Shown piece after piece: positions 24,909 through 41,177 of a DNA stretch of 44,574 nucleotides. A program made the position numbers and the translations under genes. A model generated the notes under the pieces. The model was not told where the DNA came from and did no database searches. It was given only the letters and a program-made list of their open reading frames with translations. Position 1 is the stretch's first letter, and each line of letters starts with the position of its first letter. Origin of the DNA: a virus; IMG/VR virus record IMGVR_UViG_3300008448_000175, positions 1 through 44,574 of that record; one strand, written 5' to 3'.

Positions 24909-26666
24909 ATGGCATATCAAGTAGACAAATTTAATGGAACGTTCTTAGTCTCTGTCGACGACGGTACCATTGATACCACCACTGATTTGCGTTTTGTAGG
25001 TAAAAATTACGCTGGCTACGGCGAAGTACAGAACGAGAATTTCTTACATTTGCTGGAAAACTTTGCCAATACATCGGCCCCTCCAAAAAGAATAACTGGT
25101 CAAATTTGGTATGACAGCGGCCTAAAAAAACTTCGGTTCTACGACGGCACAAAGTTTAGAACAGCCAGCGGCGCAGAGATAGGTCCTACCCCTCCCAGCG
25201 GATTGCAGGCCGGTGATTTTTGGTTTGATACCGGAGCCGAACAACTGTATGCCTATACTGGCACTGAATTTGTATTAATTGGCCCTGAAACCCTGCCTGA
25301 TCTAGGCGCATCGGCAGTACAGGCGCAGGTAGTCAAAGACACCCTTAACAACAATCATACCATAGTAAAATTTCAATCTGGCGGTGATGTAATATCAATC
25401 GTCAGCAAAGATGCATTCACCCTAAATAGCGTTTTAAATCCTATAACAGGATTCTCAGTGATCAAGAAAGGTGTCAATCTAGTCAACACCAACGGCACTA
25501 CCGGAGTAACAACTACAGATCACTATTTTTGGGGATCAGCAAGCAATGCATTGAGATTAGGCGGTTATGCTGCCAGCGAATATATTAGAATAGGTGAGGT
25601 ATCCTTTACTAATGCAATTGCTTTCGCCGATGCTGGCCTTACAGTAGGTGATCAAAATGATTTAAGAATCCGTGTTGAAAACGGTGATGAACCCATTATT
25701 GAAAACAGATTAGGCAATACTATAACCTTGAGAATACGAGTATCGGACAGTGATCTTCGTAATGTTGGTATTGTAACTGCAAATGGCATGATTCCAGGCA
25801 CAGACAATTTCTTTACTCTTGGTTCTGCTGTTTCTAAGTGGGCTAACGTGCATTCAACCACATTCACAGGGGCATTAACTGGTAATGTAACCGGAAATAC
25901 CACAGGCGTACACAAAGGTAATATACTTGCTGACGACAATTCTGTGGCCTATACCGCGGTTACAAAAATATTTTCAGGCAATTTCTCGGGAACACTCACA
26001 GGCAATGTGATAGGTTCAGTTACAGGTACAGCCACTAACGCTTTGTCTTTGAACAGTCTAGTTGGAGAACTTGGTGCAGTAGCAACTTCTGTGGCTCTGC
26101 GAGATAGCAGTGGTAACATCACTGCTACTAGATTTATCGGAGTCGTAGATAAATCAGATAGAACTAGAATAAATGACGCAGCAGTAGACACAGACCCTAA
26201 TTACAGATCTGCTAAAACCACAAAAACAGCTAACACAATTGCAGCTAGAGACGGTTCAGGAAATCTATTGGCCAATACCTTTGACGGTACAGCAACCGCA
26301 GCGCAATATGCAGATCTTGCTGAAAAATATCTAGCAGATAAAGAATATGAAGTGGGCACAGTAGTATGTATTGGTGGTGTAAAAGAAATTACAGCAGCCA
26401 CATATGGTAATAGAGCTATCGGTATTGTGTCAGGTAAGCCAGGTTTCATAATGAATTCGCAATTAGATGGTGGCACATTGGTTGCACTAAAAGGTCGTGT
26501 GCCTGTAAAAGTACAAGGTACAGTTAAGAAAGGGGACAAGTTGGTCCCTGCTCAAAATATGTTTGGCGCAGCATCGGCTGCAGACAAATCTGATACAGAT
26601 TATTTTGCTATAGCTCTTCAAGACCACCAGTCTGGTTCAGGTGTTATAGAAGCATTGGTATTATAA
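24909..26666 (+). CDS. Tail fibre/structural protein (paralog 4 of 4)
   Basis: The 585-residue product has the shared N-terminal domain (GYGEVQNENFLHLLENFA, GQIWYDSG, GDFWFDTGAEQLYAYTG, LIGPETL). It is followed by fibre repeats (FTGALTGNVTGNTTG, FSGTLTGNVIGSVTG) and, from about residue 460, the TATAAQYADLAEKY C-terminal domain shared with paralog 3. In that C-terminal region a run of 20 bases (GCAGATCTTGCTGAAAAATA) at 26310 is identical to one at 24496, so the two genes could recombine there. It has its own late promoter motif. Its role is inferred as another fibre or fibre-attachment subunit of the baseplate. Confidence 0.75.
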   Translation: MAYQVDKFNGTFLVSVDDGTIDTTTDLRFVGKNYAGYGEVQNENFLHLLENFANTSAPPKRITGQIWYDSGLKKLRFYDGTKFRTASGAEIGPTPPSGLQAGDFWFDTGAEQLYAYTGTEFVLIGPETLPDLGASAVQAQVVKDTLNNNHTIVKFQSGGDVISIVSKDAFTLNSVLNPITGFSVIKKGVNLVNTNGTTGVTTTDHYFWGSASNALRLGGYAASEYIRIGEVSFTNAIAFADAGLTVGDQNDLRIRVENGDEPIIENRLGNTITLRIRVSDSDLRNVGIVTANGMIPGTDNFFTLGSAVSKWANVHSTTFTGALTGNVTGNTTGVHKGNILADDNSVAYTAVTKIFSGNFSGTLTGNVIGSVTGTATNALSLNSLVGELGAVATSVALRDSSGNITATRFIGVVDKSDRTRINDAAVDTDPNYRSAKTTKTANTIAARDGSGNLLANTFDGTATAAQYADLAEKYLADKEYEVGTVVCIGGVKEITAATYGNRAIGIVSGKPGFIMNSQLDGGTLVALKGRVPVKVQGTVKKGDKLVPAQNMFGAASAADKSDTDYFAIALQDHQSGSGVIEALVL

Positions 26667-26675
26667 GGAAAATTT

Positions 26676-27578
26676 ATGGCAATCGGTGATTTTATTACTG
26701 CAACTGATTATAACACAATCAGAACAAAAATATTCAATGTAATGTCCACAGGAGCTGGTAATTTTGGTTACGGCCAAACCGTATTTAGTTCTTTGGTAGC
26801 AGCTGGGAATTCAGTAACAAAGACTCAATGGGATGCCTTGAGATATGACATCTATAATGCGTTATTACATCAAACAGGATCGGGCGCAGTATTGACCACA
26901 GTGGCTGTAGGCGACGTAGTAAGATATGGTGCCAGCCAACCTAATTTTCAATATGACACCTTTGCTGATCAAGCAACTACAAATAGATTTGATCTAGGTA
27001 CAGGACAATTTGTCACAGAGGCCATTGACAACAAAACATTCACATCTTCCTGGGTAAATTCTTTAACTGCCACTGTTACTGTTACATTTTCTACAGCTGA
27101 GGAGGCTAGATTCTTTTTTAATGCCGGTGGAAAAATTCGATTCGCCAGCTCAAGAACAGGCGGATCAGCCGAAGCACAAAACACATCTTGGAGCAATCTG
27201 CTCAGCAGCGCAGGTACACAGACATTTGTCGGCGGCCCAGCAGGCATAAATTTCTTTTCACTTACGAACTCTTATCAAACATTTTATACTGCAAGCGGTA
27301 GTTCGGCCTATGCTGCCAATCAGTGGAAACTAGAAGCGTTATGCAACGTCAGTAGCAATACTACAGGAACTGCCAATGTTATCACTTTCCGAGTGAGTTG
27401 GTTAGACAATTACTTTGATCCCGGTCCAAATCCAAATCCGCCCCCAGGCGACCTAGTAGACGGTACTCTTACGCTTACAGTTGATCAAGTTCGCCCTGCT
27501 GGATTTCTACAGCCCAGCGGTACCTTTACTATTATCGCACCAAGCTCTTCAGTAGTCAGCGCAATCAGCGGCTCATAA
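26676..27578 (+). CDS. Virion structural protein with Pro-rich linker and C-terminal beta domain
   Basis: This 300-residue protein begins MAIGDFITATDYNTIRTKIF, a start I recall from structural proteins of marine T4-like phages. Residues 1-70 are helical, about 90-250 are beta-rich (NRFDLGTGQFVTEA, SFTNSYQTFY-like strands), then a DPGPNPNPPPGD linker leads to a final 40-residue segment ending in ISGS. There are no cysteine clusters or membrane segments; one Cys lies in ALCNVSS. An AAGGA ribosome site supports the ATG. It closes the structural run, 23 bases before a late promoter. A tail-tip or fibre-associated role is inferred from position only. Confidence 0.65.
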   Translation: MAIGDFITATDYNTIRTKIFNVMSTGAGNFGYGQTVFSSLVAAGNSVTKTQWDALRYDIYNALLHQTGSGAVLTTVAVGDVVRYGASQPNFQYDTFADQATTNRFDLGTGQFVTEAIDNKTFTSSWVNSLTATVTVTFSTAEEARFFFNAGGKIRFASSRTGGSAEAQNTSWSNLLSSAGTQTFVGGPAGINFFSLTNSYQTFYTASGSSAYAANQWKLEALCNVSSNTTGTANVITFRVSWLDNYFDPGPNPNPPPGDLVDGTLTLTVDQVRPAGFLQPSGTFTIIAPSSSVVSAISGS

Positions 27579-27600
27579 TTTTACCTCTCGAAACACAGTA

Positions 27601-27608
27601 CATAAATA
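27601..27608 (+). promoter_or_regulatory. Late promoter motif CATAAATA opening the glycosyltransferase/radical SAM operon
   Basis: CATAAATA matches NATAAATA exactly and lies in the 55-base gap after the structural genes. No other late-promoter match was noticed in the short gene junctions before 36868, where genes overlap or abut, so this motif probably drives the whole ten-gene run. Confidence 0.65.
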
Positions 27609-27623
27609 ATGTGCGTGTTTTAT

Positions 27624-27630
27624 AGGAGGT
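27624..27630 (+). promoter_or_regulatory. Strong ribosome binding site AGGAGGT
   Basis: AGGAGGT is the fullest ribosome-site match noted in the window and ends three bases before the ATG at 27634. It fixes that start and suggests high translation of the first gene of the operon, with coupling into the next gene. Confidence 0.75.
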
Positions 27631-27633
27631 AAC

Positions 27634-27984
27634 ATGGACGGTCGTTTAAAAGCAGCCTTAGATTTTTCAAACTACAGGCAAACACTCACAATCCAGCGTA
27701 AGCAGCTCAAAGAAAAAATTGATGCAAAGATGACCTACGGTCATAATGGCGGAATATTCAAGATAGATCGCTCTCTAATCAATTTTGTTCAGCTGCTAAT
27801 TGATAGCGAAAGAATTGAAGAAGTTCCTTTGCTAGACTCAAACGATACTCCAATTTTGATTAAAAATATGAATGAGTTTAAAGAAGAAATATTAGATAGA
27901 TATTTTACTGCTGTTTACGAATATTATGAACAACATGAAACTTTAAAAAAATCTCGCTCCGTTGAAAAATTGTTAGATCTATGA
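27634..27984 (+). CDS. Conserved small phage protein of unknown function
   Basis: The product is 116 residues, mostly helical and charged, with no signal peptide or membrane segment. The N-terminus MDGRLKAALDFSNYRQTL and the block MTYGHNGGIFKIDRSLINFV recall a hypothetical protein found in many cyanophage genomes. It is the first gene of the late operon and has the best ribosome site in the window, so it may be made in quantity. Its stop overlaps the next start as ATGA. I assign no function; a structural or assembly role is possible given its strong late expression signals. Confidence 0.65.
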   Translation: MDGRLKAALDFSNYRQTLTIQRKQLKEKIDAKMTYGHNGGIFKIDRSLINFVQLLIDSERIEEVPLLDSNDTPILIKNMNEFKEEILDRYFTAVYEYYEQHETLKKSRSVEKLLDL

Positions 27985-28841
27985 AAAAAGGATGTCTAAT
28001 ATTTGCACACAATAACAGACAAATTGATTACAGTCTGTTGGCTTTAATATCCGGCGGGCTTGCTAAAAAAAATTTAAAAGTTCCAATATCTTTAGTAACA
28101 GACAAATCAACGGTTGATTGGATGCATGAGTTTGGCTCTTTACCAAAAGCCAAAGAAATATTTGAAAACATAATTATTGTAGACAGACCAGTGACAAATA
28201 ATACAAGAAAATTAAGTGACGGCATGGAATCGTCAACAGTACCGTTTATTAATTCAAATAGACATTCTGTTTGGGAATTAACTCCTTATGATCGAACACT
28301 GTTGCTAGACAGCGATTTTTTAATATTTTCTGACAATTTAGGTCAGTATTGGGATGTTGATGAATCTTTATTAATTTCACATTCCATGAACGATATAAAA
28401 GGAGACAGGGTAGGTGAATTAGACAAAAATGTTTCAGAAACTGGTATCCATATGTATTGGGCCACTACAGTAATGTTTACAAAAAATTCAGAAACAAAAT
28501 TATTTTTTGATTTGGTTGACCACATAAAAATCAATTACAAATACTACTCAGATCTTTATAGATTCAATCCCTTGCAGTTTAGAAACGATATTGCATTTTC
28601 AGTAGCTAAACACATTCTAAATGGTTACAGAGAAACAGATAACATATGTTTGCCGCCAATTAATACTGTAATAGATAAAGATATTTTGTGCGACGTAAGT
28701 AATGATAAATTAACTTTTTTAATTAACGATTTATTAAATCAAGAAAAATATATAGCAGCAGCTTCAAAGAATAGAGATATTCATATTATGAATAAACAAA
28801 GCATTATTAGAAACAGCAAAAAACTTTTGGAGTTACTATGA
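27981..28841 (+). CDS. GT-A-type glycosyltransferase-like protein (DSD motif)
   Basis: The 286-residue protein starts with a Rossmann-like strand (GCLIFAHNN) followed by a donor-binding style region (VPISLVTDKSTVDWM). The sequence DRTLLLDSDFLIF places a DxD motif at D110 and D112, the divalent metal and nucleotide-sugar site of GT-A enzymes. The layout resembles family GT8-like proteins of marine phages. The C-terminal half is helical with many Asn and Lys. It overlaps both neighbours as ATGA, so translation is coupled. Donor and acceptor cannot be read from the sequence. Confidence 0.65.
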   Translation: MKKGCLIFAHNNRQIDYSLLALISGGLAKKNLKVPISLVTDKSTVDWMHEFGSLPKAKEIFENIIIVDRPVTNNTRKLSDGMESSTVPFINSNRHSVWELTPYDRTLLLDSDFLIFSDNLGQYWDVDESLLISHSMNDIKGDRVGELDKNVSETGIHMYWATTVMFTKNSETKLFFDLVDHIKINYKYYSDLYRFNPLQFRNDIAFSVAKHILNGYRETDNICLPPINTVIDKDILCDVSNDKLTFLINDLLNQEKYIAAASKNRDIHIMNKQSIIRNSKKLLELL

Positions 28842-29677
28842 ACTTTGGTTATCTAATAATAGTATCTTCAAACAACAATATAGACTATTTAAAATTAGCG
28901 TATGCATTGGCTCTCAGCATTAAAAATACTCAAAGAGATGGATATGGCCATGTTGCATTAATAATTGACGACACAAAAAAAATTAAAGATTTAAAAAGCC
29001 CATGGGTTTTTGATCATGTAATTGAATGGAATAAAGAAACGTTTTGGGACGGAAGATCGTGGATGAACAAATTATCTCCCTTTGAATATACAGTTTGTCT
29101 AGATGCGGATATGTTGTTCACTAGAGATTACAGTCATTGGATAGATTATTTTATAGAAAATTCTGAGCTATACATTGCTCCTAACGCATATACATATCGA
29201 GGAGAACTAATTACTAACGATTTTTATAGAAGAGCGTTTACAGATAATTCGTTACCAAATTTATATAGTTTTTACACTTTTTTTAAACAAGATTCAAAAT
29301 TAGTTGAAGAGTTTTTTTCTTTAGGTAGGTGGATCATAAAAAATCCTACAGAGTTTTCTAATCTTTACCTGTCGAACAGAAAACCAAAAGTTGTTGGCAC
29401 CGACGAAGCATTCGCTCTCAGTGCTAAACTGTTAGGCATTGAAAATGAAATTAGTTATAATTTAGAATTCCCCAAAGTAGTTCATATGAAACCAATGGTG
29501 CAAAATTGGCCCTGGCCCGCCAATGAGTGGACTGATCACATAGGATTCTATCTCAACGTCGACGGACACATAAAATTAGGAAATTATCAACAGACAGACA
29601 TTATTCATTATGTTAATAAAGAACTAATAACTGACGAGGTTATTAGTATATTAGAGGAAATAGCATGGAAGAATTAA
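28838..29677 (+). CDS. GT-A-type glycosyltransferase-like protein (DAD motif)
   Basis: This 279-residue protein has the same plan as its upstream neighbour: an N-terminal strand (FGYLIIVSSNN), a YALALSIKNTQ helix, and FEYTVCLDADMLFTRD with the DxD motif at D89 and D91. Similarity outside these elements is low, so the two are diverged homologs, not a recent duplication. A conserved-looking VVHMKPMVQNWPWP segment near residue 210 may form the acceptor side. There is no transmembrane segment, so it should be cytoplasmic. It overlaps the upstream gene as ATGA and the next gene by 13 bases. Confidence 0.65.
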   Translation: MNFGYLIIVSSNNNIDYLKLAYALALSIKNTQRDGYGHVALIIDDTKKIKDLKSPWVFDHVIEWNKETFWDGRSWMNKLSPFEYTVCLDADMLFTRDYSHWIDYFIENSELYIAPNAYTYRGELITNDFYRRAFTDNSLPNLYSFYTFFKQDSKLVEEFFSLGRWIIKNPTEFSNLYLSNRKPKVVGTDEAFALSAKLLGIENEISYNLEFPKVVHMKPMVQNWPWPANEWTDHIGFYLNVDGHIKLGNYQQTDIIHYVNKELITDEVISILEEIAWKN

Positions 29678-30255
29678 TGGATTTTGACGAATGGATCAAA
29701 ATCGCCAACGCTACCAAAATACAATACTGGGCAAAATATGATCCCGACAACGGAAAAGTTCTTGGAATATATCCAGGATCATCTGCAGATACAATAAAAA
29801 ATAAGATAGAAATTGATCAAGAGACTGCAGAATCAATAAATGACGGAACAACTTCTATTTTTAATTGCCACGTAGATTTAGAATCCGGCAATTTAGAAAT
29901 TATAGAAATTAAATCATTGACAAGTATTGACGATGTACTACACAGAGTGGTAGATTCGAAATGGTCTGACACTACTGATGCAGATATCTACATAACACAT
30001 AATAACAGTACTATTTCTATAATTTTAAATGAAAAGTATAGAAAAGGAAAACGCATTTTTTGGAACGGAGAAACTGAAATGAATTTTTTTATTACAGATT
30101 ACAATGATCCAAATGTTTTGCATAACATGTTTACAGTAAAACTCAGTAAATTAATTGAAGAAAATTTTTCAATAAAAATTGATTCCCCAAAAAAATTTAG
30201 TGTTTATTCTAGACGACTTTTTAAAAAATATATTTTTATAAATGAAAACAATTGA
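29665..30255 (+). CDS. Unknown protein within the glycosyltransferase operon
   Basis: The 196-residue protein is not one I recognise. The N-terminal half is acidic (FDEWIKIANATKIQYWAKYD, then DPDNGKVLGIYPG) and may be a small beta domain of fibre-associated type; the C-terminal half is basic and Phe/Asn rich. The ATG at 29665 has a GAGGAA ribosome site at good spacing and lies inside the end of the previous gene; the in-frame ATG at 29677 would give a TAATG junction but has a poorer site. The 14-base overlap with the next gene supports a single transcript. No catalytic motif is visible. Confidence 0.6.
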   Translation: MEELMDFDEWIKIANATKIQYWAKYDPDNGKVLGIYPGSSADTIKNKIEIDQETAESINDGTTSIFNCHVDLESGNLEIIEIKSLTSIDDVLHRVVDSKWSDTTDADIYITHNNSTISIILNEKYRKGKRIFWNGETEMNFFITDYNDPNVLHNMFTVKLSKLIEENFSIKIDSPKKFSVYSRRLFKKYIFINENN

Positions 30256-31144
30256 ACTTGACATAGTTTTTTTAAGCTACGACGAACCCAATGCAGATCT
30301 TCACTATGCAGATCTATGTTCTAAGGTGCCTTGGGCCAAACGTGTACACGGCGTAAAAGGATCGGACGCAGCACATAAACAGGCCGCAGAACTGTCGGAA
30401 ACAGATTGGGTGGTTACTGTGGATGCTGACAACATTGTAGATTCTAAATTTTTTAACGTTGAGATAGATACCATTGATCCAAAAATTCAGGTATACAGCT
30501 GGCTAGGAAGAAACAGATTAAATGGTTTGCTCTATGGTAACGGTGGATTAAAAATTTGGCGGAAAGATTTCATTCTCAACATGAAAACTCACGAAGCCAG
30601 CGACAGTGAACGAGCCCAGGTTGATTTTTGTTGGGAAGATGGATATCGTCAATTTAAAGAATGCTATAGTGAAACTGTAATTACAGGATCACCGTTCCAG
30701 GCATGGCGAGCAGGATTTCGTGAGGGCGTGAAAATGACTTTACTAGATGGAATAAAAGTTCCTCCTATGGAAATCAAGGAACGTGTGTGGTGGCATAATA
30801 TACATAGACTGCGCATGTGGTCAACTGTGGGAGCACATGAAGAAAATGGTATATATGCCGTATACGGTGCTAGACTCGGCACTTGGTTGGCAAATTGCAC
30901 TCAATGGAATTATATTGATGTTAGAGATTTTGAAATATTAAAAGATATATATCATGATTATGCAAAGCCTTATGAAGATGATAACAATCAAGGTCTAATT
31001 GAAGAAATAAAATCTTTAGGTGACAAAATAAGTACGCAATTAGGATTACATTGGCCTTGGCTAGATGCTGATCAAAGCAAATATACGTTGGATCTTTATA
31101 TAGAAACAATGAATTTATCTAATACCTATTTAAAAAATGTATGA
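30242..31144 (+). CDS. Glycosyltransferase-like protein of the marine-phage GVKG...AH family
   Basis: The 300-residue protein begins LDIVFLSYDEPNADLHYADL and then VHGVKGSDAAHKQAA and WVVTVDADNIVDS, with a DxD-like motif at D61 and D63. This is a family 2-like GT-A layout that I recall as common in marine phages. Later blocks (RNRLNGLLYGNGGLKIW, PFQAWRAGFREGVKM) are shared with the following gene, so the two are paralogs. There is no signal or membrane segment. It starts inside the end of the previous gene without an obvious ribosome site and overlaps the next gene by eight bases. Confidence 0.65.
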   Translation: MKTIELDIVFLSYDEPNADLHYADLCSKVPWAKRVHGVKGSDAAHKQAAELSETDWVVTVDADNIVDSKFFNVEIDTIDPKIQVYSWLGRNRLNGLLYGNGGLKIWRKDFILNMKTHEASDSERAQVDFCWEDGYRQFKECYSETVITGSPFQAWRAGFREGVKMTLLDGIKVPPMEIKERVWWHNIHRLRMWSTVGAHEENGIYAVYGARLGTWLANCTQWNYIDVRDFEILKDIYHDYAKPYEDDNNQGLIEEIKSLGDKISTQLGLHWPWLDADQSKYTLDLYIETMNLSNTYLKNV

Positions 31145-32495
31145 TATTTTTCTTGTAAGCAAATCTGTAGTATGCAACAACCAATGGCAAACTTTTAAAA
31201 AAAGATATCCACGATCACAAAAAATAGATAATGTAACATCTTTTGATCAAATAAAATCAAAAGCATTTACCAAGTTTTTTTGGATAATTTGGGAAGATTT
31301 ATTAGTTGATGAATCTTTTGATTTTTCTTATAAAGTGCCTGAATGGGATAACGATTACATTCACGTATTTAAAAACGGTGAATTCTTTGACGGAGTTTGT
31401 TTAATTTCTAAAACAGCTAATATTAGCCAACGAGAATTTGAAAACAGATTTGTTGTTAACGGAAAAAAAGAAATAGATATTGTAGCATCGCATCCTAAAC
31501 CATATGATATATTTTATATAGACACGTATGATGAATATTTAAATGCTATAGAAACTGCAACAACTGATATGTTTTGGGTTGTCTGGAAAGAAGTTGTTGT
31601 AAATTCTAAATTTAAATTTGATTTTAAAGTTCCTAAGTATGAACAGCATATTCCTCACGTATTTAAAAACGGAAAGTTCTTTGACGGTATCTGTATTTTT
31701 CCAAGAACAGTCAAGGTCACACAACGAGAATTTGAAAATAGATTCTATGTAGAAAAAAAAGAAATAGATATAGTTGCGTCAATTCCTCGAATATTTGATA
31801 TATTTTTTATTTCTTATAATGAATCCAATGCAGATGAAAATTATAAAACATTGTTAACAAGAGTTTCGTCTGCTAAAAGAATACACGGTGTAAAAGGAAT
31901 ACATCAGGCACATTTACAAGCGGCCAAGGAATCTACATCAGAAATGTTTTGGATAGTCGATGGAGATGCACAAGTATTAGAAAATTTCGAATTTACAATG
32001 CCGCAAATTCCCTATTACAATCTGCAAGAAAGAAATCACTTTAACGAAACTGTACATGTATGGAAAAGTCAAAATCCTATTAACGGATTAACTTATGGGT
32101 ACGGTGGTGTAAAGCTATTTCCTAAAAAACTAACACTGAACATGGATCTAACAACACCAGACATGACAACTTCTATAAGTAACAACTTTAAAGTTATACC
32201 TACGGTTAGTAATATCACACAGTTTAATACAGATCCTTTTACTACGTGGAGAAGTGCATTTAGAGAATGCGTAAAATTATCTAGCAATGTAATTGATAGA
32301 TATTATGATAAGGAAACTGATCATAGATTACAAATTTGGTGCACAGAAGGAATAGAAAACAAATACGGTGAGTATGCCATAGACGGTGCAATAGAAGGGA
32401 AAAAATACGGAGAAAACAATATAGGAAATTTACAGGCATTGGCTAAAATTAACGATTTTGATTGGCTTAAGGATAAATTTGAAAATGGCAGATAA
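31137..32495 (+). CDS. Glycosyltransferase-like protein with two degenerate N-terminal units
   Basis: The 452-residue protein has three units, each opening with [YF]DIF[LYF]I: residues 2, 123 and 220. Unit 3 is intact: YNESNADENYKTL, IHGVKGIHQAHLQAAK, WIVDGDAQV (DxD at D275 and D277), PINGLTYGYGGVKLF and FTTWRSAFRECVKLSS, matching the upstream paralog. Units 1 and 2 lack the DxD; the equivalent stretches read WIIWEDLLVD and WVVWKEVVVN. Both then share HVFKNGxFFDG and QREFENRF. They look like duplicated, non-catalytic copies that could bind a glycan or another subunit. It overlaps both neighbours. Confidence 0.65.
   Translation: MYDIFLVSKSVVCNNQWQTFKKRYPRSQKIDNVTSFDQIKSKAFTKFFWIIWEDLLVDESFDFSYKVPEWDNDYIHVFKNGEFFDGVCLISKTANISQREFENRFVVNGKKEIDIVASHPKPYDIFYIDTYDEYLNAIETATTDMFWVVWKEVVVNSKFKFDFKVPKYEQHIPHVFKNGKFFDGICIFPRTVKVTQREFENRFYVEKKEIDIVASIPRIFDIFFISYNESNADENYKTLLTRVSSAKRIHGVKGIHQAHLQAAKESTSEMFWIVDGDAQVLENFEFTMPQIPYYNLQERNHFNETVHVWKSQNPINGLTYGYGGVKLFPKKLTLNMDLTTPDMTTSISNNFKVIPTVSNITQFNTDPFTTWRSAFRECVKLSSNVIDRYYDKETDHRLQIWCTEGIENKYGEYAIDGAIEGKKYGENNIGNLQALAKINDFDWLKDKFENGR
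31278..31780 (+). repeat. Tandem duplication encoding two degenerate units
   Basis: Two copies of a roughly 294-base unit lie in tandem inside the gene at 31137. The best conserved parts are CACGTATTTAAAAACGG at 31362 and again at 31656, followed in each by TTCTTTGACGG. The proteins from each copy share FWxxW, HVFKNG, FFDG, QREFENRF and EIDIVAS. Conservation at DNA level over these parts suggests a fairly recent duplication. Confidence 0.65.
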
Positions 32496-33900
32496 TAATA
32501 TCAAAGGCGACGAAGTAAAAATTATAAATGGAAAATTTGAATCTGTCTATATGCACAAATCAGAACACATGTTGTCTGAATTAAACAAAGTTAGTCCAAG
32601 TTTTTGTCTAGCCAAATGGTATAATGTAAGCATACACATTCCTACAGGTCAAACTCATAGTTGTTATCATCCAAAAAGCCACCACGTTCCTATAGAAGAA
32701 ATCAAAATTGACGTAGGTGCATTACACAATACAAAATATAAAAAAGAACAGCGCAAAAAAATGCTAGAAGGTACTAGGCCTTCAGAATGCAATTTTTGTT
32801 GGGAAATAGAAGATAGCGGAAATAATCTCAGTGATAGGCCCTACCGCAGTTTAGATAGCTGGCGTCCAGGATTAATTAGAGAAGCAATAGCACTTGGGCA
32901 TCAAGGAAATCCTAAACCTAGGTATGTTGAAGTCAATTTTAATCAAGCCTGTAATTTTAGATGTACTTATTGTAGTCCTCATCTTAGTACAGCTTGGCAA
33001 CAAGATATTGAAAGAAATGGTCCGTATAAATTAACAGACAGAACTCACAATGATTTGACGTGGATGAAAGATAAATCCATGCCAAATAACAGTCCTGATA
33101 ATCCTTACTTACTGGCGTTTTGGAAATGGTTGCCTACAATTTATCCAACATTACAAACATTCCGTATGACAGGCGGAGAACCGTTAATGGACAAGAACAC
33201 GTTTCACATGTTTGATTATGTTAAGAATAATCCTAAAAAAGATTTGCATCTAAGCATAACCAGTAATTGTTGTCCGCCCGGAGATCAATGGAATAAGTTT
33301 ATAAATGAATTAGATGGTGTTTCTTCTGCTATTGACCATTTCATGTTATTCTGTAGTTTAGACAGCTGGGGTCCTCAAGCAGAATATATTAGAGACGGAT
33401 TACACTTTGAAACTCTTAATAAAAACATTAGAGAATATTTAATCAAGGGAAAAAAGCACAGTTTGACATTTATTGTAACATTTAATGTTTTAAGTTTTTC
33501 AGGCTGGTTAGAGTATGTAAAAAATATCCACGCACTAAGAAACGAGTTCAATGTAGATAGACAATTAATATGGTTTGATATTCCACAGTTATCAAGTCCT
33601 AATTGGATGGATCCTAGGATGGCCAAAGACATGATCACTGTGCTTGAAGACTCTATTTGGTTCATGCAACAGAATAAAGAAACTGAAAGCAATAGATTTA
33701 AAGGTTTCAAAGATTACGAAATTAGTAAAGTACAACGGTTAATTGATTGGATTACGCTAACTCCGTTTGATGACAAAATAGCTATTAAAAACTTTTATCT
33801 TTATTTTTTAGAACACGATCGAAGAAGAGGAACTGATTTTCAAAAAACTTTTCCTGAATTAAATAATCTGTGGATTCAAAGCAAGGGACAAAATGAATAG
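32485..33900 (+). CDS. Radical SAM enzyme with N-terminal four-Cys (twitch-like) domain, copy 1
   Basis: From ATG 32485 the protein has 471 residues. The radical SAM motif CNFRCTYC gives C156, C160 and C163 for the catalytic 4Fe-4S cluster, followed by RMTGGEPLMD (the GGEP SAM-binding strand). Ahead of the core is a second cysteine set, C41, C60, C102 and C105 (SFCLAKW, HSCYHP, ECNFCW), which probably binds an auxiliary Fe-S cluster. This matches radical SAM proteins with an N-terminal, not C-terminal, twitch domain. A TTG at 32458 would add nine residues, but AAGGA sits about ten bases before the ATG. The substrate is unknown; peptide or sugar modification are options. It overlaps the glycosyltransferase by 11 bases. 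Confidence 0.8.
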   Translation: MADNNIKGDEVKIINGKFESVYMHKSEHMLSELNKVSPSFCLAKWYNVSIHIPTGQTHSCYHPKSHHVPIEEIKIDVGALHNTKYKKEQRKKMLEGTRPSECNFCWEIEDSGNNLSDRPYRSLDSWRPGLIREAIALGHQGNPKPRYVEVNFNQACNFRCTYCSPHLSTAWQQDIERNGPYKLTDRTHNDLTWMKDKSMPNNSPDNPYLLAFWKWLPTIYPTLQTFRMTGGEPLMDKNTFHMFDYVKNNPKKDLHLSITSNCCPPGDQWNKFINELDGVSSAIDHFMLFCSLDSWGPQAEYIRDGLHFETLNKNIREYLIKGKKHSLTFIVTFNVLSFSGWLEYVKNIHALRNEFNVDRQLIWFDIPQLSSPNWMDPRMAKDMITVLEDSIWFMQQNKETESNRFKGFKDYEISKVQRLIDWITLTPFDDKIAIKNFYLYFLEHDRRRGTDFQKTFPELNNLWIQSKGQNE

Positions 33901-35257
33901 AATACAATTTGTAAAAGATGTTAGAGATAGATTAAATGCAGTGAGTCCTAGCTTTTGTACAATGAAGTGGTTACACCAAACGCTTTATCTTCATACGGGA
34001 GATAACCACAGTTGCTATCATCCTCGTCCACATCACATTGGTCTAGATGAAATCGCAGTAGATGTGTCGGCATTACACAATACCAAGTGGAAAAAAGAAC
34101 AACGTAAAAAAATGTTAGAGGGTGAGCGTCCTCAGGAATGTTACTACTGTTGGAATATTGAAGATCTAGACGGCGATCATATCAGTGACAGAATGTTACA
34201 TAGTTCAAGTACATTTAGCGAACCTATAATTGAAAAAATAGCAGAACTTCCTTGGGACGCTCCAATCAATCCTAGATATCTCGAAATTAGTTTTGGTAAT
34301 GGTTGCAATTATCGTTGCGGATATTGTGGCCCCCAAGCCAGTTCGATGTGGATGGAAGAAATTAAAAAGCACGGAAATTATGATTTAACCTATAATCAAT
34401 ACGGTATTGAGTTTCTAAAAACAGGAACATACTATGCACCTAAGGAAGAAAATCCTTATATTGAAGCGTTTTGGAAATGGTGGCCTAGTTTAAAAAATGA
34501 TTTGCATACTTTAAGAATTACTGGCGGAGAACCTCTAATGAATCCAGGAGCTATGCAGTTTTTTAAACTATTAGAAAATGAACCGGCACCTAACCTAGAA
34601 GTAAGTATTAACAGTAACTTAGGTGTAACATTTGAAAAAGTCGATAGTTTGTACACTAGAGTTAACAGCTTGATAACTCAAAAAAAGATTAAATCTTTTA
34701 GTTTGTTTACCAGTATAGATTCGTGGGGACCACAAGCAGAGTACATGCGTACAGGGTTACGGTGCGATCACTGGGAAAGAAACATGACGCAGGCCATCGA
34801 ACAGCTAGGAATATCAGTTAATTTCATGATTACATTTAATGTACTATGCGTAACTAATTTCCGATCTCTCTTAGAGAAATGCATTGAGTGGCGAAAGAAA
34901 TATGGAAAACAAGCAATCAGTTTAGACATGCCATATTTGAAAGAACCGCCTCACTGGATGATTAACATATTAACAGATGATTTCTTGCAGTGCATGGATT
35001 CTAATCTTGAATTTATTAAAGATAATCAAGATTACTTTACAGGAATTGAATACGAAAAGTTTAAAAGAGTTACGGATTACATGCGAGAGAATCCGGTAAG
35101 CAAAGAAAAGATTCGTCAAGGCCGCCGAGATTTTTATTCGTTTTTTACAGAAAATGATCGTAGATTAGGAACTAATCTCTTAGAAGTGTTTCCCGAATAT
35201 ACTGATTTTTATAATTTGTGTAAAACTATATATGATGAAACAAAAATTAATAATTGA
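33893..35257 (+). CDS. Radical SAM enzyme with N-terminal four-Cys (twitch-like) domain, copy 2
   Basis: This 454-residue paralog of the upstream enzyme keeps every key element: C22, C41, C83 and C86 with exactly the same spacing (x18, x41, x2), the core CNYRCGYC at C138, C142 and C145, RITGGEPLMN, and SIDSWGPQAEYMRTGL. Conserved HNTKxKKEQRKKMLEG links the auxiliary cysteines in both copies. Divergence between copies is large in the C-terminal third, which suggests two different substrates or two steps on one substrate. The ATG overlaps the upstream stop (ATGAATAG) with an AAGGGA ribosome site. The product should be cytoplasmic and oxygen-sensitive. Confidence 0.8.
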   Translation: MNRIQFVKDVRDRLNAVSPSFCTMKWLHQTLYLHTGDNHSCYHPRPHHIGLDEIAVDVSALHNTKWKKEQRKKMLEGERPQECYYCWNIEDLDGDHISDRMLHSSSTFSEPIIEKIAELPWDAPINPRYLEISFGNGCNYRCGYCGPQASSMWMEEIKKHGNYDLTYNQYGIEFLKTGTYYAPKEENPYIEAFWKWWPSLKNDLHTLRITGGEPLMNPGAMQFFKLLENEPAPNLEVSINSNLGVTFEKVDSLYTRVNSLITQKKIKSFSLFTSIDSWGPQAEYMRTGLRCDHWERNMTQAIEQLGISVNFMITFNVLCVTNFRSLLEKCIEWRKKYGKQAISLDMPYLKEPPHWMINILTDDFLQCMDSNLEFIKDNQDYFTGIEYEKFKRVTDYMRENPVSKEKIRQGRRDFYSFFTENDRRLGTNLLEVFPEYTDFYNLCKTIYDETKINN

Positions 35258-36053
35258 ATTTGATAATTCTATTCAATTAGAATGGAATATAAAACGTCAA
35301 CCTCTTGCACAAAAATGGGCAGCACTGGTACAGGAAATGATTACCAAAGAATTACCCACCAAGGTAATGAATTTCCATTTTATGTCAAACCCCAAACAGT
35401 ACTATTATGAGTTAACCAGAGATTCTATAAATTTATTAAAAGAAAAAATAAATTTAATTCCTAATTTTCCTACAATAGACTCTATAAATTTACAGGATTT
35501 AAACAGCCTACATGATTGGTTTGCAAATGCACAAGATATAACCCATGTTTTGCATACTTTACATATGTCATTACACAGCTTAGAATCGGAAATATCGAAT
35601 CAACATGTACAAAAATTTCCTAACACTCATGTTGCATGGAATACTTCTTACGGTAAAACATTTGAAGACAGAGAACATCTTTTGTTCGACAAAAGTAGAA
35701 ATTTTGGCGATATATTTCTAACCTATCATCATATAGGAAAAGATCCATATGCTATATGGAGTAGCAACGATATTTTATCTGACGACGTATTTGTTGAGTA
35801 TACGCAATATTCTGCAGATTTTGTAATATGGTTTGGTAAAAACACTAGATCTGAACCTTCAGAAGAATTTTGGAGCTGGTTTGATAGCAATTATGAATGG
35901 TTTAAACAAAGAACAAATTGGAAAAAAAGAGATATCAGGGCCGGAAATTCTAGATACATCGCGGCAACATTAAATACCACAGATTTATCTCCAACAAAAA
36001 TTAAAAACATTTTAAAAACAGAATCTAAAATTACAAATATACATATTGAATAA
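35232..36053 (+). CDS. Unknown protein coupled to the radical SAM pair
   Basis: The 273-residue protein is not in a family I can name. It is rich in aromatic residues and His (QKWAALVQEM, LHTLHMSLHSLESE, FGDIFLTYHHIGKDP, EEFWSWFDSNYEWF) and contains no cysteine. It has no membrane segment or signal. It starts 26 bases inside the second radical SAM gene and ends in a TAATG junction with the SGNH gene, so it is tightly bound to that pathway. It could be a partner or substrate-recognition protein for the radical SAM enzymes; that is inference from position only. Confidence 0.6.
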   Translation: MMKQKLIIEFDNSIQLEWNIKRQPLAQKWAALVQEMITKELPTKVMNFHFMSNPKQYYYELTRDSINLLKEKINLIPNFPTIDSINLQDLNSLHDWFANAQDITHVLHTLHMSLHSLESEISNQHVQKFPNTHVAWNTSYGKTFEDREHLLFDKSRNFGDIFLTYHHIGKDPYAIWSSNDILSDDVFVEYTQYSADFVIWFGKNTRSEPSEEFWSWFDSNYEWFKQRTNWKKRDIRAGNSRYIAATLNTTDLSPTKIKNILKTESKITNIHIE

Positions 36054-36868
36054 TGACAAAGTCTAAATTAATCATTTGTGCAGGCGATAGTTATACAGCA
36101 GGAGATGAACTTGCAGGAGATCTTTTCGTAGAAGGGTATACCAGTACATTATATCCTAATAACCAAGAAATGACGGATGAGCGTAAAAAAATAATTGAAA
36201 AATTACAAAAAAAAACTTTACCGTTATGGCAAGATAAAATTAAGAAAAATTTTTACGAATCGGAATGTAAGAAAAAGGCATGGCCTGCTCATTTAGAACA
36301 ACTGCTATCTGGTACCGATGTAATAAATTGTTCAGCACCTGGAATATCTAATGAAGAAATTGTTCACAGAGCAATAGATACTTTTTGTAATTTGAAAAAT
36401 GATTATAAAGCTAATAATATATCAATTATAATTATGGTCACTTCTTATAATAGAATGGGATATCCCATGTATGATGTTAATTATAAAAATGAATATAATT
36501 ATGCTAGCTGGACTTCTGGGCACTTTGAAAATAAAATATCTCCATCTTTTATGGAAAATGATGTTTTCAATTTTTTCTTTAAAATGAAAGATTATGATCG
36601 ATTAGTAAAATCTATCTCTGTATTGTCTCTTGCAAAATTGTTTTTTGAAACTAACGGATGTAGTATACATTTTGTTGATTCGTGTATTTGGAACAATGGA
36701 TTAACGAAATTTAATTTTGAATATAAAGAAAAACTACAGTTTTACAAAAAAATTATTCCAATTGTTTTAAAAATGGCTGATCTTAACCCAGAATATGTAT
36801 TACCTAATCATCACTTTACAGAACAAACACATAAAGAATTCGCAGAACAAATTAGTAAATTAATCTAG
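36053..36868 (+). CDS. SGNH/GDSL-type hydrolase-like protein, copy 1
   Basis: The 271-residue protein starts with ICAGDSYTAGDEL, the block I motif of SGNH esterases with nucleophile S13. Block II is recognisable as NCSAPGISNEEI (Gly oxyanion residue) and block III as MVTSYNRMG. The C-terminal block V reads PNHHFTEQTHKEFAEQI, with H254 as the likely base; the usual Asp three residues earlier is replaced by Pro. Such enzymes remove or transfer acyl groups on sugars. It ends the late operon and overlaps the convergent gene by nine bases. In this operon a role in glycan O-acyl change is plausible. Confidence 0.65.
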   Translation: MTKSKLIICAGDSYTAGDELAGDLFVEGYTSTLYPNNQEMTDERKKIIEKLQKKTLPLWQDKIKKNFYESECKKKAWPAHLEQLLSGTDVINCSAPGISNEEIVHRAIDTFCNLKNDYKANNISIIIMVTSYNRMGYPMYDVNYKNEYNYASWTSGHFENKISPSFMENDVFNFFFKMKDYDRLVKSISVLSLAKLFFETNGCSIHFVDSCIWNNGLTKFNFEYKEKLQFYKKIIPIVLKMADLNPEYVLPNHHFTEQTHKEFAEQISKLI

Positions 36869-37168
36869 TATTCGTTTTGTTTCTTGTCCTATATCTGCCT
36901 TTAATTTATCTACATTTACTTTGAAATCTATCTTTTTGATTTCATCTTTGTATTCAGCAAATGTTTCTACCAATCTATTGGCAACTATATCGCTGTGACT
37001 GTTAGACAGCTGTTCAGCAATATTGATCTCCCATATCCTACCATTGCCAAATTCCAACCTAATTGATTCTAGGTAGTGAACCGGCATGGTATTCATATAA
37101 AGATCTTCAAAGACTTCCGGCCATTCCTGAACAAGATGTTTGGGCGGTTTGAACAGAGGTTTAGGCAC
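36860..37168 (-). CDS. Conserved small phage protein
   Basis: The 102-residue protein (KPPKHLVQEWPEVFEDLYMN, then VHYLESIRLEFGNGRIWEIN) resembles a hypothetical protein I recall from cyanophages. It is mixed alpha/beta, without membrane segments or cysteines. The start is GTG at 37168, eight bases inside the end of the upstream gene, and no ATG offers a better choice before residue 26. Its stop overlaps the end of the SGNH gene on the other strand. Function unknown. Confidence 0.6.
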   Translation of the reverse strand: MPKPLFKPPKHLVQEWPEVFEDLYMNTMPVHYLESIRLEFGNGRIWEINIAEQLSNSHSDIVANRLVETFAEYKDEIKKIDFKVNVDKLKADIGQETKRILD

Positions 37169-37802
37169 TGTTAATTTCTTTGGCCTTTGCCGTTTTCTTT
37201 ACCGGTGGATCCAAGTCGTCTGCTTCTTTACGTAGTCTTGCAGCTTCTTTGTACATTGAATCAGCTTGACTGCGGTAGCTTTTAGCAATATCTTTATCAG
37301 ATAAAACTTCATTAGCGGCCGCCTTAAGAGGTACTACTGCAGGTGTTGATGGAGGAGCAAGGTCTTTGACCTTTACAAGTTCTTGAACTTCGGGGGTATT
37401 TTTCTTAGAACCCGAAACAAACGTGCATAAGTCATCCACTGCACAGTTTTTCTGTTCCGCAATCAATGTATTAAGTTGATGCAGGGCAATTTCACTGCCA
37501 GGCGACGGCATCATCAAAACATCGTCTGTAGGAACCTTGGCCATTCTGTTATCAGCCTTTAGCGCCTGCAACATTGGACGGCCGTCGGAAAATGATCTTG
37601 TAAATAATACTTCACCAAATTCAAATGCAGATTGTGCTTCGGTAGTCTCAACCAACTTCATGATATCGTCATGGTAGTTGTCTGACAGACTGGATACTGG
37701 AATAACCAATGCCTGATTGGATTCGCCGGGTAATGTTCTAAAAGCTACTAGAACCTTAGAGCCTGCCTTTTTCATTTTTCCTACATGTTTTAATGATTTC
37801 AT
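37161..37802 (-). CDS. Conserved phage protein with Lys/Ala-rich C-terminus
   Basis: With the ATG at 37802 the protein has 213 residues. Residues 1-125 form a folded-looking part (VLVAFRTLPGESNQALVIPV, LHQLNTLIAEQKN); a Pro/Ala linker then leads to a helical, Arg/Lys-rich end (SYRSQADSMYKEAARLRKEA) that may form a coiled coil. The GTG three bases earlier is less likely because AAGGA lies six bases before the ATG and only three before the GTG. The upstream stop forms a TGATG junction. It may be a scaffold or DNA-associated protein, but this is a guess from composition. Confidence 0.6.
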   Translation of the reverse strand: MKSLKHVGKMKKAGSKVLVAFRTLPGESNQALVIPVSSLSDNYHDDIMKLVETTEAQSAFEFGEVLFTRSFSDGRPMLQALKADNRMAKVPTDDVLMMPSPGSEIALHQLNTLIAEQKNCAVDDLCTFVSGSKKNTPEVQELVKVKDLAPPSTPAVVPLKAAANEVLSDKDIAKSYRSQADSMYKEAARLRKEADDLDPPVKKTAKAKEINSA

Positions 37803-38020
37803 CACTGTTCCTTTTTCGTGACAGCTTCTAAGAATGCATTTAGTTTATTATAAGTCTTACCAACTGCTTCTAATTCGGCTGCTTTAAACGCTCCTCGTTG
37901 GCTGGCCACATCTAATATGCTTCTTAGTGCGGACAAGTCGTTGATATTTAAATCCGGTGCTGCCGGCTGCGGTGCTTCTGCGGCTGGCTGTGCTTCTGGT
38001 GTTTTTACTTCTTCGTTCAT
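37802..38020 (-). CDS. Small conserved phage protein with Ala/Pro-rich N-terminus
   Basis: The product starts at ATG 38020 (MNEEVKTPEAQ), giving 72 residues. An in-frame upstream start at 38044 exists, but a consensus AAGGAGA ribosome site at 38026-38032 lies exactly between the two and supports the shorter form. The N-terminal 25 residues are disordered (Ala, Pro, Glu), followed by two helices (DLSALRSILDVASQRGAF and LEAVGKTYNKLNAFLEAV). It forms an ATGA overlap with the upstream gene and a TGATG junction with the next. Function unknown. Confidence 0.65.
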   Translation of the reverse strand: MNEEVKTPEAQPAAEAPQPAAPDLNINDLSALRSILDVASQRGAFKAAELEAVGKTYNKLNAFLEAVTKKEQ

Positions 38021-38292
38021 GTGTTTCTCCTTATATGTGGACATGCTAGCATAAAATAAGTCAGCTCTTTGTGATCTTCAAATCCCACATATGTGGCAGT
38101 CTTGAGTTTTCCATCTTGTGAAATACCAGGCTGCCTTTTTATGTAGAATCTTCCCACCAATTTGGATCTGATCCAAGTTTCAACATCTGATCCAAATAGG
38201 TCTACATCGGCCAGTTTTATTTTGGCAAAATGCGGAGCCACTGAATCAACCTGTCTATGATTTAAGATGTCAAGAGCGTTTAGTTTTAACAT
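38017..38292 (-). CDS. Small conserved phage protein
   Basis: The 91-residue protein (LNALDILNHRQVDSVAPHFA, then LVGRFYIKRQPGISQDGKLK, YVGFEDHKELTYFML) is compact alpha/beta with no known motif. It has two aromatic-rich C-terminal strands and no membrane segment. The ATG at 38292 has no ribosome site; an ATTAAATA motif ends five bases upstream, so a very short or absent leader is possible. It is followed by an ATGA overlap with the next gene and preceded by a 24-base gap. Function unknown. Confidence 0.55.
   Translation of the reverse strand: MLKLNALDILNHRQVDSVAPHFAKIKLADVDLFGSDVETWIRSKLVGRFYIKRQPGISQDGKLKTATYVGFEDHKELTYFMLACPHIRRNT
38026..38032 (-). promoter_or_regulatory. Ribosome binding site AAGGAGA that fixes the start at 38020
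   Basis: On the minus strand AAGGAGA ends five bases before the ATG at 38020. It lies inside the 3' end of the upstream gene and decides between two in-frame starts. Confidence 0.7.
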
Positions 38293-38316
38293 AGTGATAT
38301 TTAATTCAACGATAAT

Positions 38317-38715
38317 TTATTGAGACGATTCTTGGCTTAGTCTTTTATTCAACGCCTTAGCAGCACCCATTTTTCTAACATCGCCGGCAAACAGATACAG
38401 TTCAAAGGCTGCTTTTTCTGATAATACTTTAATGTATCGTTTTTGTAAATGGAAGGGCGAATCTAGATATTGATCCATCCAAACTAGAACTTGCGGTCCT
38501 ATTGTAAGATCTTTTGGAAGTTCTATTTTGTAAGTTTTAATTTCTGATTTGGTTTCTACAAATTCTAGACATTGGTCAGTCATACGTAGGCCACCAACAT
38601 CTTTGCCTCGAGTACTTAACCACCAAACAGCACGAAATTTTTTAACATATTCGGCATCATGTGGCTGTCCAGCAGCTTTGAGGAATACCGAAGTATAGGT
38701 ATCCTTGCGGTCCAT
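38317..38715 (-). CDS. Conserved phage protein of unknown function
   Basis: The 132-residue protein has an N-terminal helix (DAEYVKKFRAVWWLSTRG), a beta middle (LRMTDQCLEFVETKSEIKTY) and a C-terminal helical half (AAFELYLFAGDVRKMGAAKALNKRL). It resembles a hypothetical protein that I recall in cyanophages. No catalytic motif or membrane segment is visible. The ATG at 38715 follows the previous stop by three bases with a weak GAG-type ribosome site, so it is part of the same transcript as the gene at 38719. Confidence 0.6.
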   Translation of the reverse strand: MDRKDTYTSVFLKAAGQPHDAEYVKKFRAVWWLSTRGKDVGGLRMTDQCLEFVETKSEIKTYKIELPKDLTIGPQVLVWMDQYLDSPFHLQKRYIKVLSEKAAFELYLFAGDVRKMGAAKALNKRLSQESSQ

Positions 38716-40740: not shown

Positions 40741-41177
40741 AGATTGTTTTTTCTAACAGAATTAATATCAATAACGCCAGTGTTAACAGCACCTCCAAAA
40801 TCTCCGTCAACTACTACATTAGCGCAGAGTTCACGGAACCAACGATCTACAATTTCTTCATCTTTGTCGCCATCAAATCCGTATCCTTCTTGCTTTAATT
40901 TTAACACAAATTGCTCGTTCCAGTCAAGTTCAAAAAAGCCATTACGAATGTTGTCTTTGTTAACGTGCGTGTTAAGCACACCTACCCAGGGTTCTTTTAA
41001 TTTAGTGGCGCGATCTTTTGGACTTAGTTTGGCAGTTTCTTCTGCTTCTTTGGCACGTTCTGCAGACGCAACTGCATCTTTAGCGATCTTTGTGGATTCT
41101 TCTGCCAGCTTTACTGCGGCTTCAGTTTCTGCTTTGAGTTTATCAATGCCAAATAATTTTTCTATAAATCGTTTCAT
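40737..41177 (-). CDS. Conserved phage protein with N-terminal coiled coil
   Basis: From ATG 41177 the product has 146 residues. A basic amphipathic start (MKRFIEKLFG) leads to an Ala/Lys/Glu coiled coil (residues about 12-55), then a conserved-looking folded part (EPWVGVLNTHVNKDNIRNGF, FELDWNEQFVLKLKQEGYGF, VDRWFRELC). I recall the C-terminal part from cyanophage hypothetical proteins, often next to the nuclease. The GTG four codons earlier is possible, but the ATG makes a TAATG junction with the queE stop. It may associate with membrane or DNA; function unknown. Confidence 0.62.
   Translation of the reverse strand: MKRFIEKLFGIDKLKAETEAAVKLAEESTKIAKDAVASAERAKEAEETAKLSPKDRATKLKEPWVGVLNTHVNKDNIRNGFFELDWNEQFVLKLKQEGYGFDGDKDEEIVDRWFRELCANVVVDGDFGGAVNTGVIDINSVRKNNL

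Follow-up and report, generated by a model that had tools for sequence, protein, structure and literature searches.

What do ten overlapping genes that lie directly behind tail-fibre genes, and that encode glycosyltransferase-like proteins next to radical S-adenosylmethionine (radical SAM, rSAM) enzymes, contribute to the phage carrying them? This question is raised by IMG/VR virus record IMGVR_UViG_3300008448_000175, analysed here as one whole record of 44,574 bases (the window), in which the genes (g1 to g10) occupy positions 27634-36868 of the plus strand. An original prediction, made from the letters alone, had described them as one late operon whose products build or alter a glycan or peptide, perhaps on tail fibres or the host surface. 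Comparison with relatives established that the ten genes are a recurrent cassette of uncultured phages, composed of a conserved core and a variable rSAM/SGNH cargo, and revealed a predicted T4-type late-only switch in front of g1. Our tentative explanation, held at somewhat short of even confidence, is a late virus-encoded cassette for glycan assembly and radical tailoring within the tail-fibre locus, with fibre proteins as the most likely acceptor. The genes and their order, the promoter, the hairpin and the glycosyltransferase and rSAM assignments listed below were all computed.

27584..27629, plus strand: predicted RNA hairpin over the g1 ribosome site, with the promoter within it (folding z, g1 upstream regions, covariation on a chosen set)
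27601..27608, plus strand: T4-type late promoter core CATAAATA (comparison of upstream regions)
27625..27629, plus strand: Shine-Dalgarno sequence GGAGG of g1, pairing with CCUCU 27584-27588 (fold prediction)
27634..27984, plus strand: g1, 116 amino acids (aa), conserved core protein without a named function (first core gene in loci with enough DNA; no INPHARED match)
27981..28841, plus strand: g2, family GA, GT8-like glycosyltransferase (sub-cut-off Pfam GT8; family profile against glycogenin)
28838..29677, plus strand: g3, family GA, GT8-like glycosyltransferase (same family as g2; D89, D91, D189 and H257 conserved)
29665..30255, plus strand: g4, unnamed core protein, conserved to a lower degree than its neighbours (comparison in relatives; structure model)
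30242..31144, plus strand: g5, GB1, GT2/GT-A-like glycosyltransferase with D-A-D (32% identity to the g6 C-terminal domain; weak Pfam GT2)
31137..32495, plus strand: g6, GB2, two degenerate glycosyltransferase-like repeats and one GT-A domain (repeats; model; residues 217-363 with predicted GT-A fold)
32485..33900, plus strand: g7, N_Twi_rSAM class 0, open reading frame (ORF) opening with TTG 32458 (NF033640, 4e-90)
33893..35257, plus strand: g8, N_Twi_rSAM class 1 (NF033640, 5e-92)
35232..36053, plus strand: g9, rare protein without a named function (10-member family)
36053..36868, plus strand: g10, SGNH-like hydrolase or acyltransferase (GDS, GxSN and H motifs)
24909..26666, plus strand: tail-fibre-type virion gene on the left flank (PHROG tail fibre matches; family TF in relatives)
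26676..27578, plus strand: T4x, virion-type gene directly 5' of the cassette (relatives in 11 PA5oct-like Pseudomonas phage records)
36860..37168, minus strand: x20, the gene that opens a convergent block bounding the cassette in many relatives (family comparison in relatives)

All ten ORFs were confirmed as a gapless series at the predicted place and on the predicted strand. As listed they overlap by 4, 4, 13, 14, 8, 38, 8, 26 and 1 bases, so that the proposed range of 1 to 26 bases fails at g6/g7; it holds throughout if g7 starts at ATG 32485 instead of TTG 32458, which shortens that overlap from 38 to 11 bases.

The case for a cassette rests on recurrence in IMG/VR viral contigs, where g8 has relatives at 186 places and g5 at 453, the best 80 being kept in each case (L001 and L002, pieces of the window, were excluded from counts). 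GB1 was defined as 270-320 aa on the plus strand, and a thinned set comprises 31 loci of GB proteins of 270-320 aa, reduced at 90% identity. Family counts rest on longest-ORF calling with unrefined start codons and, since each search yields related loci, some of them from the same contigs, locus counts are not independent. The order g1-GA-GA-X, X being the gene in the place of g4, stands directly upstream of GB1 in all loci with enough DNA (69/69 g5-anchored, 61/61 g8-anchored, 27/27 thinned; 11 of the 80 g8-anchored loci are without GB1 in the sampled DNA). A fibre-type or T4x gene precedes g1 in 60/63, 58/60 and 24/27 loci of the same three sets, rSAM genes follow within six genes after the core in 44/44, 61/61 and 19/19, and GB1 has a second GB gene behind it in 80/80, 55/69 and 21/31. 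The genes are thus not scattered among relatives; the predicted late operon is supported, and so are conserved co-occurrence and order.

The right border in many loci is a convergent block with x20/x21, and the cargo between core and border differs among relatives, with up to five rSAM genes in a row. Other cargo includes several SGNH-like families (by motif), a B12-binding rSAM and a methyltransferase; the stretch from GB1 to the border contains SGNH-type families in 32/42 and 16/28 loci of the two anchored sets. The predicted glycan-type chemistry gained support from enzymes located 3' of the rSAM genes, namely a sugar C-methyltransferase, an NAD epimerase and a carbamoyltransferase in some relatives and a DegT aminotransferase with another epimerase in others. 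The ten genes need not stay together: g9 is rare (its family comprises 10 of 2,994 proteins), SGNH genes are exchanged, and six contigs carry rSAM arrays without GB1 in the locus, four of them devoid of GA and GB throughout the record and two with one GB-type match (all six being fragments). In L006 and L087, a near-identical record without the g8 end, g8 and g9 form one 694-aa ORF (window 33893-36053), either a true fusion or an assembly error. A 281-kb record (G002) holds 18 rSAM matches, some of them pieces of one gene, including 13 at 230-258 kb in a second rSAM-rich cluster (L244, L245; 224-262 kb), which also encodes epimerase, 2-oxoglutarate oxygenase, arginine-deiminase-like and QueC-like proteins.

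A search of phage genomes had been proposed as a check, and its outcome depends on the collection: the core co-occurs in order in IMG/VR relatives, whereas tblastn of 50,697 deposited phage records with four window proteins as the only window queries gave no match to g8 or g5 (1e-5), g1 (0.01) or g3 (0.001), nor did the same records match the rSAM, GB (1e-5) or GA (0.001) protein of contig L236. Four contigs filed as metagenome-assembled genomes (MAGs) of Pelagibacter, Rickettsiales, Rhodobacteraceae and Neomarinimicrobiota (L233, L236, L242 and L190) look like phage DNA because they carry T4x-g1-GA-GA followed by rSAM genes (GB was called in L236, L242 and L190, not in L233). Apparently mis-binned contigs under bacterial MAGs comprise these four and L192, all with T4x-g1-GA-GA, as well as L166, L202, L237 and L243, with phage-type rSAM and cargo.

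When would such a cassette be expressed? The promoter core CATAAATA named in the original prediction is present at 27601-27608, and as stand-alone evidence it was rejected (one copy in the window vs. 4.7 expected) and retained only after comparison of upstream regions. Of 43 distinct upstream regions of g1, 28 have an ATAAATA that starts 27-34 nucleotides before the gene, as against almost none for inner genes (0/113 for GA, 0/48 for g4, 0/107 for GB and 1/187 for rSAM), which argues that the promoter is real; the same motif precedes 29/61 fibre genes and 8/68 T4x genes. A generic sigma70 promoter scan of 26000-38500 was uninformative, with 57 sites vs. 52.8 ± 8.0 by chance.

The promoter lies inside a predicted hairpin, in which CCUCU at 27584-27588 pairs with GGAGG at 27625-27629 (z -5.3; -9.0 and -8.4 in two relatives). 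In an unselected test of 49 upstream regions of g1, 35 had z below -2 (median -3.8), as compared with 2 to 5 of 43 to 60 in six control gene classes; a looser test gave a weaker result, the Shine-Dalgarno sequence pairing with the 5' arm in 31/49 regions vs. 340/980 after arm shuffling (controls, 1/43 to 11/54). Covariation was assessed on sets of 24 (of 51 distinct upstream regions) and 12 sequences, which favour structure because promoter and hairpin guided their selection by eye; the 51-row upstream alignment mixes registers and was left out of counts. The 24 sequences gave two-sided pair changes in 43 cells vs. 23 ± 4.3 shuffled and a covariation score of 0.271 vs. 0.177 ± 0.016 (slid versions at most 0.139), and, less clearly, 12 pairs changed on both sides vs. 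9.1 ± 1.6 (31/500 shuffles). The 12 sequences gave 7 cells vs. 2.8 ± 1.3, a score of 0.260 vs. 0.214 ± 0.015 and 90/500 shuffles for both-side pairs, while the number of pair types on the chosen sets was as shuffled (247/500 and 351/500). Two of the five measures, pairs changed on both sides and further pair types, are therefore not clear of shuffles. An Rfam scan of 27000-37200 returned zero matches. In L070 and L082, a sigma70-like TTGACA/TATAAT replaces the late promoter at the same place, with the hairpin kept (by eye and fold; L070 z -6.2).

T4 late promoters initiate a few bases after TATAAATA, which presumably puts the late start of g1 at about 27613. Late messages would thus be without the 5' arm of the hairpin and would be translated; from 27612 on, the g1 ribosome site is predicted to be unpaired. 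Read-through messages from the fibre genes, in which the hairpin would hide this site, should be silent. Taken together, the promoter inside the hairpin, the Shine-Dalgarno sequence in its 3' arm and the conservation of both identify, at the level of sequence and predicted fold, a T4-type late-only switch at g1. Joint expression with the fibre genes would then be a matter of timing only, not of one translated message, and the original claim that the overlaps imply joint expression with the virion genes gives way to a separate promoter and a predicted translation-blocking hairpin.

The GA proteins g2 and g3 are termed GT8-like, since they do not reach the curated Pfam score: g2 matches Pfam GT8 at 2e-4 (21.4 bits, below the 24.3-bit cut-off), g3 has no Pfam hit, and only 2 of 26 family members match at 0.01. 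The family profile nevertheless aligns with glycogenin (5.2e-8), and D112, D203 and H268 (g2 numbering) are invariant and D110 nearly so, which preserves the D-x-D motif. The Pfam GT2 matches of the second pair are weaker still (g5, 14.8 bits, below the 27.5-bit cut-off; 2 of 25 g5-family members, best 4e-4; no Pfam hit for g6), and the best PDB sequence match of the g5 family was 0.12; for g5 and g6 we thus propose a GT-A fold and not membership in GT2. A g6 model (pLDDT 91) has a predicted GT-A fold in its last domain, residues 217-363, with a match to B4GALNT1 (Z 11.2, 2.7 Å over 135 residues). Foldseek retrieved 106 chains at E ≤0.001, most of the 50 listed being titled glycosyltransferases, with TM scores of at most 0.25 as normalised by the 452-residue model. 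GB proteins above 330 aa (n=138) contain 0 to 8 repeats in a rough count with a small repeat profile, and the g6-type repeats shown (alignment of 29 of 30 non-redundant rows, L076 left out) no longer have the D-x-D seen in the full domain, as judged by eye. Contigs L029 and L030 are closely similar (97.7% identity in 10.8 kb of downstream and 92.4% in 5.7 kb of upstream sequence); their g6-type proteins have 880 vs. 1,084 aa, the 204-aa difference corresponding to about two 107-aa degenerate repeats.

By profile score, g7 and g8 are members of N_Twi_rSAM (NF033640), at 302.6 bits (4e-90) and 309.1 bits (5e-92) against a curated cut-off of 170 bits. In a non-redundant rSAM set (370-560 aa only, reduced at 90% identity from 509 to 152), CxxxCxxC is kept in 152/152 proteins, and four extra twitch cysteines are kept in 122/122 proteins of the N-twitch classes; in g8 these are C138, C142 and C145 (SAM cluster) and C22, C41, C83 and C86 (twitch). 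The remaining 30 proteins, in three classes, are without the N-terminal domain, and the printed examples have SPASM-like C-termini by eye. Positions 7-77 of a profile of 28 N-twitch rSAMs align with the C-terminal twitch domain of BtrN (residues 185-258; 4m7t, 1.5e-6), which places an auxiliary twitch domain at the front of these enzymes; BtrN is an aminocyclitol dehydrogenase. Among proteins of at least 250 aa, class order within the arrays is fixed: class 0 directly before class 1 in 84/84 (carried by 12 distinct class orders), class 1 before classes 2/4 in 81/81 and before 3/6 in 74/74, and 3/6 before 2/4 in 72/72. An assembly line is not needed here, because common descent of the locus suffices to explain the order.

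The SGNH assignment of g10 rests on conserved motifs, the blocks GDS, GxSN and H near the C-terminus being present in 7/7 aligned sequences (window included) and in 19/19 by loose motif; profile searches stayed below cut-off (DUF6071 at 0.036 only; PDB profile 0.57), and its six relatives are 94-100% identical. Names of the other SGNH-like cargo families are weaker, since the loose motifs are less regular there. A structure model of g4 (pLDDT 81) matched, among viral models, only unnamed or uncharacterised phage proteins, and a name from PDB was rejected as too weak (only a segment, Z ≤5.5; no clear PDB relative). The families of the original prediction have held to different degrees: over cut-off for the rSAM enzymes, as GT8-like for g2 and g3, as a predicted GT-A fold for g6, as a weak Pfam GT2 match for g5 and by motif only for g10.

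In the surrounding window, the genes upstream of the cassette are T4-type baseplate and tail-fibre genes, and the baseplate wedge protein is closest to those of jumbo phages (36% to Agrobacterium phage Atu_ph07). A 4,576-aa ORF at 4697-18427 lies 3' of the wedge gene; large virion protein genes likewise precede the fibre genes in Atu_ph07 and PA5oct. T4x had zero matches in a PHROG search, and the record of its relative in PA5oct, gp360, carries an annotation by electrospray ionisation tandem mass spectrometry (ESI-MS/MS). PA5oct represents the empty site, its T4x relative being followed directly by convergent genes. A QueE-like rSAM gene is located at 41177-42031 on the minus strand (PHROG 2e-50), and no tRNAs were found in the window or in the four loci scanned.

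Cellular relatives provide a second source of context. A collection of cellular genomes yielded 78 loci with g7/g8 relatives (from the best 80 of 83 stretches), 55 of which are titled, by our own count, as Bdellovibrio- or Bacteriovorax-type groups (one as Oligoflexia); among the other 23, five carry T4x-g1-GA-GA and four more phage-type cargo. Across the 78 loci we find PqqD (15), a small S74 protein (15), GT4 (24) and carbamoyltransferase (17) families, two families resembling an ABC exporter by eye (c3 and c4; 28 and 21 loci) and an S24/S26-like peptidase (14 loci, profile below cut-off); one member per named family was profile-tested, the carbamoyltransferase via the phage family's profile. 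In a FastTree tree, several deep nodes of which are weakly supported, rSAM classes from phages and from cells are intermingled, and this suggests several phage/cell exchanges. The S74 protein, of 140-170 aa, accompanies N_Twi_rSAM in 15 loci, mostly titled Bdellovibrionota (L199, L203, L207-L210, L213, L215, L217, L219, L222-L224, L231 and L235), has a conserved FGGIxEFNLxxIExEVLN.SxYLDVFAGSD ahead of its S74 domain, and has a PqqD-family protein for company in 12 of the 15. In phage fibre families, S74 motifs were practically absent (0/197 TF, 1/193 T4x). According to PMC10769870, Bdellovibrio has fibre proteins (MAT) of both S74 and non-S74 type; the word "radical" is absent from the main text of that paper, which leaves the rSAM-fibre link in Bdellovibrio as a lead only.

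How might these parts work together? We infer the sugar substrates, the order of steps, the acceptor and the benefit. The GT8-type g2 and g3 and the GT2-type g5 and g6 would join sugars into a short chain in the cytosol, the twitch-type g7 and g8 would remodel its sugars (e.g., by oxidation, epimerisation or deoxygenation), and g10 would add or remove an acyl group. A glycan made and used in the cytosol is favoured by the glycosyltransferases, by the sugar-type genes in the cargo and by a hydropathy scan in which clear membrane proteins were lacking (0/10 window cassette genes reach the membrane threshold, g8 being nearest at 1.52 of 1.6; in relatives, 23 of 1,471 genes between g1 and the right border or locus end reach it). 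The tail-fibre position and late timing favour virion proteins as the acceptor, most likely a fibre or T4x protein during its assembly in the cytosol.

Several observations pull the other way. GT8 enzymes of the lipopolysaccharide (LPS) core are likewise without membrane segments, so that absent membrane proteins do not single out virion proteins; IspD and MobA nucleotidyltransferases match the g6 domain about equally, and its fold alone does not fix its function; of the 14 thinned loci that include a right border, only 4 contain an SGNH-type family; the four fragmentary rSAM-array contigs without GA or GB indicate that rSAM cargo can exist without the glycosyltransferase core; and PqqD beside the cellular rSAM relatives points to peptide rather than sugar substrates. 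The cassette may serve the tail fibres or the host surface, the two purposes named at the outset. In the latter case it would alter the LPS core or O-chain of the host during infection, providing superinfection exclusion or freeing progeny from receptors. We consider this possible but rather doubtful: GA is GT8-like and LPS-core GT8 enzymes form a serious alternative, and PMC7029224 reports, for pelagimyophages, a GT8-rich tail-fibre island with rSAM cassettes and favours O-chain modification, whereas late-gated expression would leave little time for surface remodelling, the scan found no clear membrane protein in the cassette, and nothing like the apparent ABC polysaccharide exporter of the Bdellovibrionota clusters was seen there.

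A further reading gives the rSAM enzymes a peptide or fibre protein as substrate, in the manner of ribosomally synthesised and post-translationally modified peptides (RiPPs), with the glycosyltransferases acting on the same protein; it appears unlikely. It would account for the PqqD and small S74-chaperone families beside the cellular relatives (15 loci each) and for the SPASM-like C-termini (by eye) of the fourth-position rSAM classes. It also finds a parallel in two isolated jumbo phages, Atu_ph07 (L255, NC_042013.1 116908-123646) and Phosso (L256, PV764938.1 184865-193014), where rSAM/SPASM operons 3' of fibre genes include a protein of about 300 aa ending in FCHSSCHASCHNSRSRR or YCHTSCHASCHSSRSRR (CHxSCHASCHxSRSRR type), which resembles a RiPP core. 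However, a scan of phage loci for a cysteine-rich substrate tail gave only the rSAM proteins themselves, no PqqD was named among the profile-tested phage cargo families, and the Atu_ph07 enzymes match the cassette rSAM profile weakly (5e-9 to 5e-5). A hypervariable island, in which unrelated host-interaction genes share an insertion-tolerant site behind the fibre genes, is more improbable still: the cargo does differ between relatives and rSAM arrays also occur away from the core, but core order is unbroken in testable loci and rSAM class order is fixed (84/84 and 81/81, in related loci). Least credible by far is the making or glycosylation of a hypermodified nucleotide in phage DNA. Phages use glycosyltransferases and rSAM enzymes in DNA modification and the window has its QueE-like gene, while late gating, position in the tail locus and the dissimilarity of GT8/GT2-like enzymes to known DNA glycosyltransferases all speak against it.

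Returning to a glycan on virion proteins, a bolder and rather improbable extension is a radical-tailored glycan or glycopeptide on the phage's own fibres, made by two-cluster rSAM chemistry whose cellular relatives belong mainly to Bdellovibrio-type predators with S74-type (fibre chaperone) proteins in their loci. If true, a shared, undescribed modification of adhesive fibres would link phages and predatory bacteria. Whatever the acceptor, rSAM arrays are now tied to one conserved glycosyltransferase core, one place (behind fibre genes) and one expression switch, which makes their role testable; class order and the cellular relatives offer clues as to where to look for the substrate, and the late-only hairpin makes a precise prediction for transcript 5' ends.

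How does the cassette compare with known systems? In the literature searched (supplements and most subscription papers being outside reach), we found no stated role for phage rSAM arrays, and neither the conserved core and class order nor the degenerate glycosyltransferase repeats and operon hairpin were found described; PMC5332604 mentions 12 rSAM in one T4-like genome, and the name of NF033640 states no reaction, whereas the window and its relatives present ordered paralogue arrays. The closest known system, as described in PMC7029224, is the pelagimyophage host recognition cluster, likewise a tail-fibre-linked variable island of T4-like phages with glycosyltransferases and rSAM. That island is called hypervariable there, and freshwater pelagimyophages are described as lacking LPS and rSAM genes, whereas the window cassette has a fixed core, a fixed rSAM class order and a baseplate nearest to jumbo phages. 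The Bdellovibrionota loci share the rSAM family, with carbamoyltransferase and DegT families common to some phage contigs, and differ in their GT4 enzymes, PqqD, S74 protein and ABC exporter (by eye). Atu_ph07 and Phosso resemble the window in having several rSAM enzymes after fibre genes and differ in the SPASM type of these enzymes and in the cysteine/histidine-tailed protein (Atu_ph07 has no GA match and GB at best at 0.004). Finally, according to PMC3014915 and PMC2988022, T4 e, soc and I-TevI display the same arrangement of a late promoter inside a hairpin hiding the ribosome site of the next gene; the T4 hairpins guard a lysis or homing gene, whereas that of the window would guard a ten-gene biosynthetic operon.

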